From Persephonella sp. (lineage in GTDB: Bacteria; Aquificota; Aquificia; Aquificales; Hydrogenothermaceae), in contig NZ_JALVTW010000003.1 in NCBI RefSeq assembly GCF_027023985.1, positions 1 through 57,509 on the forward strand: a stretch of 57,509 nt of DNA, in the 5' to 3' direction. A program made the translations under genes and the position numbers. The notes under the pieces are model-generated. The model saw only the letters and a list, made by a program, of their open reading frames with translations. It was not told the DNA's origin and did not search any database. The first letter of the stretch is position 1. Every line of letters begins with the position of its first letter. Below, in pieces: positions 6,830 to 12,411 of this stretch.

Positions 6830-7468
6830 GTGGCAGTAAGAATTATATATGTCAGACATGCAGAAAGTTTATGGAACCCAATCGGGAAATATCAGGGAAG
6901 ATTAGACCCTGAATTATCAGAAAGGGGACACAAACAGGCACAGCTTCTTGCTTTAACACTGAAGAAATACTCTCCAACCGCTTTATATACAAGTCCGCTT
7001 AAAAGAACATATATGACAGCTGAATATATTGCAAAAGAGCTGGGACTGGAAATAAATATTGATGAGGATATTATTGAGATAGACCATGGGGAATGGTCTG
7101 GAATGCTTGTTGAAGAAGTTAAAGAAAAATATCCAGACATGTTCCGCCAGTGGCTTTATGAACCGGAAACAATAAAATTTCCCCACGGGGAAACCCTTGT
7201 TGATGTTTATAACAGGGTAAAAAGATTTCAGGAAAAAATGCTTGAAAAACATGATGGAGAAACAGTTATAGCAGTTTCCCATACAGTTCCAATCAGAGCC
7301 TCATTTGTCGCAGGACTGGATATTCCACTTTCAAAATTCTGGAGTTTTGGGTGTGATAATGCATCTTACTCAATACTTGATTATGACAAGGTCAGACCAA
7401 TTCTTTATAAACTGAACAACACATACTTTTTAGGTGATTTATTTATACCTGCATTAGATGCACTATAA
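6830..7468 (+). CDS. pspA: metal-independent phosphoserine phosphatase, histidine phosphatase superfamily
   Basis: The 212-residue protein has the phosphohistidine signature VRHAESLWN (His10 nucleophile), a second arginine in SPLKRTYMTA, the acid motif EIDHGEWSG and the second catalytic His in AVSHTVP. It looks like cofactor-dependent phosphoglycerate mutase, but the stretch IIEIDHGEWSGMLVEEV and the C-terminal KFWSFGCDNASYS closely match what I recall of PspA from Hydrogenobacter thermophilus, an enzyme shown to dephosphorylate L-phosphoserine without metal. Placement directly after an aminotransferase supports the serine role. A GTG start at 6830 follows AAGGAGCGG. Confidence 0.85.
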   Translation: MAVRIIYVRHAESLWNPIGKYQGRLDPELSERGHKQAQLLALTLKKYSPTALYTSPLKRTYMTAEYIAKELGLEINIDEDIIEIDHGEWSGMLVEEVKEKYPDMFRQWLYEPETIKFPHGETLVDVYNRVKRFQEKMLEKHDGETVIAVSHTVPIRASFVAGLDIPLSKFWSFGCDNASYSILDYDKVRPILYKLNNTYFLGDLFIPALDAL

Positions 7469-10001: not shown

Positions 10002-11882
10002 TCAATCTCCTAATCTGGTATTATTTATTCTAAGGGCATTCAAAACAACACTCACAGAGCTAAAAGACATTGCAACCCCTGCAATAACAGGCTTAAGCAG
10101 TATTCCTGCCACAGGATATAAAATTCCCGCTGCAACAGGTATCCCGATAACGTTATAAATAAATGCCCAGAACAGATTTTGTTTTATAACATTCATACTA
10201 AACGAAGAAAGATTTATTGCCTTTAAAACTAAATTTAGCTCATTTTTCAAAAGTAGAATATCACCTGTTTCTTTTGTTATATCTGTTGCCTGAACAACGG
10301 CTATTCCAACGTTTGAAGATGCCATTGCAGGAGCATCATTTATTCCGTCCCCGATAAACATTACCTTCTCACCTTTCTGTTGCAGTTCCTTCACAATTCT
10401 GTATTTATCCTCAGGTTTTAGCTGGGCAAAGCATTCATCAAAGCCGGCTTCAGCACATATTCCCCTTGCTACTTCTTCTTTATCCCCTGTTAGTAAAACA
10501 GTTTTTATCCCTTTTTCTTTTAATTTATTTAAAACAGTCTTTGCTTCAGGTTTGAGGTTATCGCTAAGATAAAAAACAGCAACAAGTTTATCATCAACAG
10601 CTATTAAGAGCTCTGTTTTTTTAGAGTTTTCCTTAATAACAAACCCGTGTTCTTTTAGGAAAGCTTGATTTCCTGCTATAACATTTTTTCCTTCAATCAT
10701 CGCAATAATTCCTTTTCCGGAAACTGATTTAAAACTTTCAGGTTTTGCCTCATACTCAGGGATTTTTTCTAAAACAGCTTTTGCAACAGGATGGTTAGAG
10801 TTTTTCAAAGCAGGATAAGCATATTTTAACAGCTGTTTATCAAATATTTTTTCTTCTATAACAGAGAGCTTTCCTTCTGTTATTGTTCCCGTTTTGTCAA
10901 AAATAGCAACGGTAATATCCTTAATCCCTTCAATAATTTCCGGATTTTTAATCAGTATCTTTTCTTTAGCTCCTTTGCTTACTGCAACAACAATGGCAAT
11001 TGGTGTAGCAATTCCGAGGGCACATGGACAGGCAATGATTAAAACAGAAACAGAAGATAAAAATGCTATATCCGGTTTATCCATCAAATACCATATATCA
11101 AAAGTTAGAATAGAAATAATAAGAATAGCAGGAACAAAAACTGCCACAACCTTGTCAGCAAGTCTTCCAACAGGTGGTTTTTTTTCTTGTGCCTGTGACA
11201 CCAGTTTTGCCAGCTGGGATATAAATGCATCTTTTCCTGTTTTTGTGGCTTTGATTAATATATATCCATCAACAAGAAGACTACCGCCTAAGACTGTATC
11301 CCCTGTTTTTTTCAAAACAGGCAGGCTTTCCCCTGTGAGAATTGACTGGTCAATCTCTCCGGAACCCTCAATAACTACGCCATCAACAGGAACCCTTTCG
11401 CCGGCTTTCACCACAACAATATCTCCAACTACTATACTATCAGCAGGAATCACTGTCTCTTTTCCATCTACAATTATTAATGCTTTTTGGGGTTTTAGTT
11501 TAAGGAGTTTTCTCAAAAATCCTGTTGCCTTATTTCTGGAACGGCTTTCTAGATATCTGCCAAGTAAAACAAATGTGATAATAGCAGCTGCACCGCCAAA
11601 ATAAGTTGACCTCATATTCTCAGGAAAAAGGAAAGGAAAGAATATAACAAAAACCGAATAAAAATAAGCAGCAGAAGTCCCTATAACAATAAGCAGGTTC
11701 ATATCGGCAATTCTGTTTTTCAGACCACCTATTGCAGACCTGTAAAACTCCCAGCCTGCCCCAAACTGGACAATAGAGGCAAATATCAGGGAAAGGACAT
11801 TTTTCAGGTTTAAAAATTCATTTGACTGGATTAGAGGCTTTTCCAGAAAAGGCAGTTTAAAAAATTCAAGGGAAAATACCAA
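10002..11882 (-). CDS. copA: copper-translocating P1B-type ATPase (core; probably expressed by -1 frameshift from the HMA ORF)
   Basis: The 626-residue ORF carries all core motifs of a Cu+-exporting ATPase: ILTGES actuator loop, IIACPCALG (CPC metal site), DKTGTITEG (phosphorylated Asp), SNHPVAKA (HP locus), GDGINDAPAM hinge, and a Cu+-type last-helix signature MSFSSVSVVLNALR. The listed start is TTG 11882, which lacks a Shine-Dalgarno. The frame stays open and reads as sensible ATPase sequence 66 bases further up (KKKLEEEKSLKIRFIIALIF) to a TGA at 11949-11951, with no normal start codon. That open stretch begins inside the A9 run that ends the HMA-domain ORF. I infer the full protein is HMA-ATPase joined by slippage. 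Confidence 0.85.
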   Translation of the reverse strand: MVFSLEFFKLPFLEKPLIQSNEFLNLKNVLSLIFASIVQFGAGWEFYRSAIGGLKNRIADMNLLIVIGTSAAYFYSVFVIFFPFLFPENMRSTYFGGAAAIITFVLLGRYLESRSRNKATGFLRKLLKLKPQKALIIVDGKETVIPADSIVVGDIVVVKAGERVPVDGVVIEGSGEIDQSILTGESLPVLKKTGDTVLGGSLLVDGYILIKATKTGKDAFISQLAKLVSQAQEKKPPVGRLADKVVAVFVPAILIISILTFDIWYLMDKPDIAFLSSVSVLIIACPCALGIATPIAIVVAVSKGAKEKILIKNPEIIEGIKDITVAIFDKTGTITEGKLSVIEEKIFDKQLLKYAYPALKNSNHPVAKAVLEKIPEYEAKPESFKSVSGKGIIAMIEGKNVIAGNQAFLKEHGFVIKENSKKTELLIAVDDKLVAVFYLSDNLKPEAKTVLNKLKEKGIKTVLLTGDKEEVARGICAEAGFDECFAQLKPEDKYRIVKELQQKGEKVMFIGDGINDAPAMASSNVGIAVVQATDITKETGDILLLKNELNLVLKAINLSSFSMNVIKQNLFWAFIYNVIGIPVAAGILYPVAGILLKPVIAGVAMSFSSVSVVLNALRINNTRLGD

Positions 11883-11935
11883 AACTGTAAAAATTAAAGC
11901 AATAATAAACCTAATTTTAAGGCTTTTTTCTTCCT

Positions 11936-12283
11936 CTAACTTTTTTTTTCAAAATTTTCTAAATCTTCAGAGGCATCATAACCAAGCTCTTTTATCTTGG
12001 CTATTATCTGTTCTTTGGTTATTTTTGCAGGGTCGTATTCAAAAACACCTTTTGATGTTGCCAGATTAACCGAGGCAGAAATAACTCCTTCTGTAGCCCT
12101 AAGTGTTGCCTCTATACCAGCGACACATCCGGCACAATGCATTCCTGATATGTTAAGTTCTACTGTTTTCGTTTTTCCTGTAGTTTCTTTCTTTTCATTC
12201 TTATCATCTTTTCCACCGAAGAAAAACCAGCTTATACCACCTATCATTAACGCGGATACCGATAAAACAGCGAATTTATCCAA
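11936..12283 (-). CDS. membrane-anchored HMA copper-binding domain (N-terminal part of the copper ATPase)
   Basis: The 115-residue ORF has an N-terminal transmembrane helix (about 3-23, ending WFFFGG), a Lys/Glu-rich linker, and a heavy-metal-associated domain (about 40-108) with the Cu site GMHCAGC. It ends with GAA AAA AAA AGT TAG, where the nine consecutive A residues (plus-strand T9, 11941-11949) immediately precede the stop. A -1 slip on the A run enters the ATPase frame. The unshifted product would be a small anchored copper-binding protein, comparable to the CopA(Z) chaperone released from E. coli copA. Confidence 0.85.
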   Translation of the reverse strand: MDKFAVLSVSALMIGGISWFFFGGKDDKNEKKETTGKTKTVELNISGMHCAGCVAGIEATLRATEGVISASVNLATSKGVFEYDPAKITKEQIIAKIKELGYDASEDLENFEKKS

Positions 12284-12411
12284 CTTTCTGCCTCCTGGCT
12301 ATGATACAGAATAATTTATTCCAAACTCTGCGAAAAGTGAACTCTTTTATTATAAAATTTTTTAGCCTTAAGATTTAACCGAAAAATATTAAAAAGCGGA
12401 GGTAAACATAT

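Follow-up and report, generated by a model that had tools for sequence, protein, structure and literature searches.

How can a copper-transporting ATPase be synthesized when its reading frame has no usable start codon and opens inside a run of nine A's that lies at the end of another reading frame? This question is raised by a locus in the 57.5-kb stretch of Persephonella DNA analyzed here (the window), in which an HMA-domain ORF and the ATPase frame meet at the following features:

12291..12296, minus strand: Shine-Dalgarno sequence AGGAGG, 7 nt 5' of the TTG start of the HMA ORF (direct sequence reading)
11936..12283, minus strand: zero-frame HMA ORF, 115 amino acids, 12.4 kDa, with its TTG start at 12283
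11941..11949, minus strand: candidate A9 slippage run, in the context G-A9-G
10002..11948, minus strand: ATPase (−1) frame, comprising the linker KKKLEEEKSLKIRF, transmembrane helix A (TM-A), and the remainder of a P1B-1 Cu+-ATPase

An HMA domain and a copper ATPase in two frames joined at an A9 run

A sequence-only reading of this locus had described its frames, and direct reading confirmed that description. The HMA ORF ends GAA AAA AAA AGT TAG at the A9 run, with the TAG stop at 11938-11936. The ATPase frame, −1 relative to the HMA ORF, opens at a TGA (11951-11949) whose last base is the first A of the run, and the earliest possible start codon in it (ATG, GTG, or TTG), a TTG, comes 22 codons in and belongs to TM-A. 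Translation of this frame begins KKKLEEEKSLKIRFII..., also given as KKKLEEEKSLKIRFIIALIFTVL.... The HMA ORF encodes an N-terminal transmembrane anchor (residues 4 to 22), then a charged stretch, and finally an HMA domain that has the motif GMHCAGC and matches Pfam PF00403 (68 bits, 8.5e-19).

The second frame encodes a predicted P1B-1 Cu+-transporting ATPase of the CopA type: it scored 581 bits against TIGR01511, over the cut-off, and carries all P1B-1 motifs, namely TGES, CPC, DKTGT, HP, GDGIND (GDGxND), YN, and MSFSS (MxxSS). Its best solved relative is Legionella CopA (PDB 3rfu; 3e-138), and the alignment starts at residue 10, ahead of the first TTG. Directly 3' of the A9 run the −1 frame is already protein-like, aligning with CopA and showing its greatest variation at third codon positions. 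Either the addition of one A or a −1 slip of the ribosome would join the two frames into a protein of 760 amino acids (82.6 kDa) with the predicted junction peptide ..DLENFEKKKLEEEK.., and this fusion aligned, over the stretch from the HMA into TM-A, with CopA homologues that are encoded in frame, restoring the HMA-to-TM-A layout. Like P1B-1 Cu+-ATPases of the Legionella CopA type, the fusion has all catalytic and transport motifs and an HMA 5' of TM-A; it differs from them in an extra N-terminal transmembrane anchor before the HMA and in the placement of HMA and ATPase in different frames. Its linker is charged, of the KKKLEEEK type, and longer than that of the sister family, whose in-frame HMA-ATPases (~670 to 820 amino acids, ~40% identical) may be paralogues and thus illustrate the canonical layout without necessarily representing the ancestor. 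A search for plasmid relatives found none. Automatic annotation likely presents such proteins as a truncated ATPase and an orphan HMA protein.

The A9 junction is conserved throughout the Hydrogenothermaceae

The HMA/ATPase split was found in 31 species genomes of eight genera, all of one family, the Hydrogenothermaceae, whose members inhabit hot vents and hot springs; the set includes Persephonella, Sulfurihydrogenibium (among them the isolate S. yellowstonense SS-5), Hydrogenothermus, and other Hydrogenothermaceae. We read the junctions at 26 ATPase loci and 31 HMA loci. The run was exactly G-A9-G in 30 of the 31 orthologues, the exception being a draft genome with A8 (G062, L060). Such conservation of run length is a criterion for programmed transcriptional slippage sites (PMC1088944). 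Every position of the run was invariant, as was the G on either side, while neighboring synonymous positions varied. The 26 orthologous ATPases other than the window's were 47 to 94% identical to it, and their frames, which all exclude the HMA, spanned 637 to 665 amino acids except in one degraded copy. That copy belongs to a 55%-complete Persephonella MAG (G008; L017, G008:C37), in which the ATPase frame holds many stops while the HMA and the A9 run are intact; the frame is either a pseudogene or poorly assembled.

Among the 30 sequences with A9, the zero frame always closes 1 to 3 codons past the run, through several different sequences, and the third frame closes within 9 codons. The first ATG, GTG, or TTG of the ATPase frame lies 12 to 80 codons past the slip point and never ahead of TM-A. 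Because both other frames close, the pump requires that one A be added or that the ribosome slip by −1. An alignment of Persephonella and Sulfurihydrogenibium orthologues, proposed in the sequence-only reading as a check, showed the A run and both frames to be conserved. An in-frame version, that is, the single uninterrupted copA by which that reading would have taken the junction for an indel, occurred in none of the 31 family genomes. Its central proposal, a slip at A9 that joins the HMA to its ATPase, is supported by this conservation, from which we infer that slippage itself occurs.

The short product may be a membrane-tethered copper chaperone

Of 12 near-complete family genomes, 11 had no significant PF00403 match above the cut-off other than the HMA of the HMA/ATPase gene; G024 was the only one with further HMA matches. 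Where the genome has a single HMA, no CopZ-like protein besides the unshifted product would exist, which argues that this product is used. The protein has the stand-alone HMA fold with an MxCxxC motif (GMHCAGC) of CopZ-like chaperones, and it scores under every curated NCBIfam CopZ cut-off. Unlike such chaperones, it is predicted not to be soluble, the hydrophobic helix at residues 4 to 22 serving as an anchor. By the positive-inside rule, the charged stretch KDDKNEKK that follows the helix would place the HMA in the cytosol. Conservation of the gene and the absence of another HMA suggest that the short product may have a function separate from that of the pump.

We consider it likely, judging from sequence, that the HMA ORF and the ATPase frame are one gene, from which RNA-polymerase slippage at A9 yields both an anchored chaperone and a pump. 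RNA polymerase would mostly copy the A9 template faithfully, with a share of the transcripts gaining one A. The A9 mRNA would give the 115-amino-acid protein, composed of the N-terminal membrane anchor and a cytosolic Cu(I)-binding HMA and followed immediately by a stop, while the A10 mRNA would give the 760-amino-acid fusion of anchor, HMA, linker, and P1B-1 copper-exporting ATPase. Transcripts with A8 or A11 would yield the HMA protein with a short tail and no pump. Both products would accumulate, the short one may pass copper to the pump, and the gene would thereby fix, through its own structure, how much membrane-tethered copper chaperone is made relative to the copper pump.

Other genes of the family are shifted at A9 runs

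A9 sites were read in the window's genome (G000), G006, and G015. Of the sense-coding A9 runs in G006, some 12 in number, we read about 5 as frame junctions, and the share in G015 is similar. Three genes besides HMA/ATPase have A9 junctions that share its polarity and are conserved in more than one genus:

G000:C33:50072-50080 (L077; also L104-L124, L131): A9 run of the poly(A)-polymerase-like gene
G000:C10:5538-5547 (L064; also L244-L256, L261): run of the YlxR gene
G000:C27:4301-4309 (L073; also L173, L189, L369-L375): A9 run of the outer-membrane usher gene

At 16 family loci, a poly(A)-polymerase head/RNA-binding protein, which may be the A-adding half of a CCA system, is split from its HD domain at T/C-A9-G with −1 polarity; an in-frame A10 occurs in G004, G016, and G020, and the run is lost in G018. 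YlxR (DUF448) is A9-shifted after its first CxxC in the readable Persephonella and g3 loci and is in frame, with A10, only in the window's own genome. The usher is A9-shifted directly past its signal peptide in g1 and g3, and in G003 it has A10 and is still shifted. The first base of the A9 run falls at codon position 2 in the HMA ORF and the G015 usher, at position 3 in the poly(A)-polymerase-like gene, and at position 1 in YlxR and the g1 usher. Since the start phases differ among genes, length and not phase is the common feature. From these three cases, A9 slippage is evidently either tolerated or put to use in the family, and the HMA/ATPase gene stands apart from them because it is without any in-frame allele.

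Two further genes were rejected as parallel cases. ruvA of the window's genome contains A9 (G000:C23:16591-16599, L072), and its frame needs one A fewer; ruvA is uninterrupted in G005, G006, and G013, and the run is either a lineage-specific indel or an assembly error. dnaX is a single open frame of ~480 to 500 amino acids in the family, and the A9 runs of the window's genome all lie outside it. As side observations, a family-B DNA polymerase-like gene (G015, L199) and an IS607-like resolvase gene (G006:C2, second contig, L177) are also split at A9 runs.

The slip could be real but merely tolerated, rescuing an indel that became fixed at a slippery run, with the full pump as the sole useful product. 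The poly(A)-polymerase-like gene resembles such a case in being mostly A9, with the three in-frame A10 alleles and the one lost run, and so would ruvA of the window's genome as a lineage-specific A9 indel. We nonetheless give this explanation only about one chance in four for HMA/ATPase, in which in-frame alleles number 0 of 31 although mutation from A9 to A10 is easy, the zero-frame stop has been preserved via several different sequences, and the genome holds no other HMA protein.

The preferred reading, slippage that yields two useful products, can be extended to the family. It is about an even bet that RNA-polymerase slippage sets the chaperone-to-pump ratio, possibly tuned by temperature or copper, and that A9 slippage is a lineage-wide expression device of the Hydrogenothermaceae that selection has maintained in no fewer than four genes (copper chaperone/pump, poly(A)-polymerase-like HD enzyme, YlxR, and outer-membrane usher). 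If A9 slippage does serve several genes, the family would be a good natural system for studying how programmed RNA-polymerase slippage is maintained and used.

A-run avoidance points to RNA polymerase rather than the ribosome

The run at 11941-11949 satisfies the length expected of a transcriptional slippage site, about nine or more A's or T's at a frame junction. It is the only A9 in the 57.5-kb window, for which dinucleotide shuffles predicted 20.8, and the whole 1.90-Mb genome has 16 runs of nine or more A's. We based A-run statistics on the window and on 400-kb samples of G006, G015, G020, and G041, and the null for coding sequence (CDS samples of 330 to 353 kb) was obtained from codon-aware synonymous shuffles within genes. 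In CDS, A9 was observed 0 times against 29.1 (G006), 11.2 (G015), and 19.6 (G020) expected, in every codon phase. A8 was present at 0.39 to 0.70 of expectation, and A7 was not depleted; A7 in phase 3, which is the A_AAA_AAA heptamer, stood at 0.94, 1.36, and 0.97 of expectation in G006, G015, and G020, respectively. A9 is thus avoided in the sampled ordinary CDS, as expected for a sequence on which transcripts slip, and the avoidance tracks run length and not ribosomal phase, which favors slippage of the RNA-DNA hybrid in RNA polymerase. The sister family also avoids A9 (0 versus 3.7 expected). Bacteria generally avoid long A runs, and replication slippage is a possible cause (PMC1088944).

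Programmed ribosomal −1 frameshifting, by tandem tRNA-Lys slippage on A_AAA_AAA, would make the same fusion from an unedited A9 mRNA. Frameshifting of this type occurs in Escherichia coli copA and in many IS elements. The run contains an in-phase slippery heptamer of the X_XXY_YYZ type (GA A_AAA_AAA AGT), a −1 shift on it gives exactly the required frame, and A8 is slightly more depleted in the two phases that contain the heptamer than in the third. Furthermore, all three codon phases of A9 contain A_AAA_AAA, so that a ribosomal slip is compatible with each junction. Against this explanation, the junction showed no conserved stimulatory fold (alifold consensus 0.0, mean z −0.67) and no consistent upstream Shine-Dalgarno-like element, anti-Shine-Dalgarno duplexes there being no better than in random windows. 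In CDS, in-phase A_AAA_AAA is not avoided whereas A9 is, and the run is held at nine, beyond what the heptamer needs, with the other A9 junctions lying in other phases. The evidence for RNA polymerase is circumstantial, though good: slippage from A9 to A10 in the mRNA fits better, and a ribosomal origin has, in our estimate, little more than one chance in five.

Initiation of the ATPase on its own, as a second gene translated by coupled reinitiation or from a nonstandard codon, is very improbable. Shine-Dalgarno-like purines do lie 3' of the run, where the anti-Shine-Dalgarno duplex averages −5.7 versus −3.9 kcal/mol in random windows. However, none of 30 genomes has an ATG, GTG, or TTG ahead of TM-A, several have none before codons 67 to 80, the linker has no conserved ATT or CTG, and it is coding in frame right up to the run. 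On this ground independent initiation was rejected, and the earlier statement that the ATPase has no normal start holds for all 30. Sequencing or assembly error, or pseudogene decay, can be dismissed almost entirely, for although homopolymers are error-prone, draft G062 has A8, and G008 a degraded ATPase frame, the run is equally long in 30 species genomes that were assembled independently, among them near-complete genomes and that of the isolate S. yellowstonense SS-5, the ATPase retains every motif, and family-wide conservation of this kind rejects error.

Relation to known recoded genes

In Thermus thermophilus dnaX, transcriptional slippage occurs at an A9 run (PMC1088944, PMC5009743). The Hydrogenothermaceae gene resembles it in its sense-strand run of nine A's, its thermophilic host, and nearby stops in the other frames; it is a different gene, and whereas the unshifted frame gives the long product in dnaX, the long product of HMA/ATPase needs the slip. 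In E. coli copA, a −1 ribosomal frameshift gives CopA(Z), a soluble 70-amino-acid chaperone (PMC5009743). Both are copper ATPase genes recoded into a pump and a short HMA protein, but the polarity is reversed: in E. coli the unshifted product is the pump and the shifted one the chaperone. Unlike in E. coli, the small product in Hydrogenothermaceae is membrane-anchored and the site is A9. Of these two precedents, both invoked in the sequence-only reading, RNA-polymerase slippage like that of dnaX fits the locus better, and the copA parallel stands with its polarity inverted.

Homopolymer slippage by RNA polymerase is required for the longer product in Citrobacter rodentium tssM1 (A11; PMC4256274) and Shigella mxiE (PMC1088944), and in tssM1 both products are needed (PMC4256274). 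These genes are unrelated to HMA/ATPase and are known from one or few species, lacking family-wide conservation at a fixed run length. Thus, slippage at A9 (T. thermophilus dnaX), a slip-dependent long product (mxiE and tssM1), and recoding of copA (E. coli) are known already (PMC1088944, PMC5009743, PMC4256274). As far as the literature searched shows, the novelty lies in the gene itself, its polarity, its small anchored product, its conservation throughout the family, and the use of the device in several genes; we found no publication on the HMA/ATPase gene or on slippage in Hydrogenothermaceae, and supplementary gene lists of recoding surveys could include it. If the proposal is true, slippage would be required to synthesize this copper ATPase, in an arrangement conserved family-wide with a polarity opposite to that of E. 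coli copA, and the co-encoding of chaperone and pump through recoding would be a convergent solution.

Occurrence beyond the family

We scanned 84,980 species genomes for MxCxxC followed 159 to 189 nt later by GA9G, and 107 stretches matched. Every Hydrogenothermaceae stretch among them was a −1 junction, and the HMA-ATPases from outside the family carried GA9G in frame, with the exception of one Balneolaceae MAG (L264). In this MAG, the HMA-ATPase is split at A9 in the −1 direction, with GA9G at about position 6976, which represents either convergent use or a MAG error.
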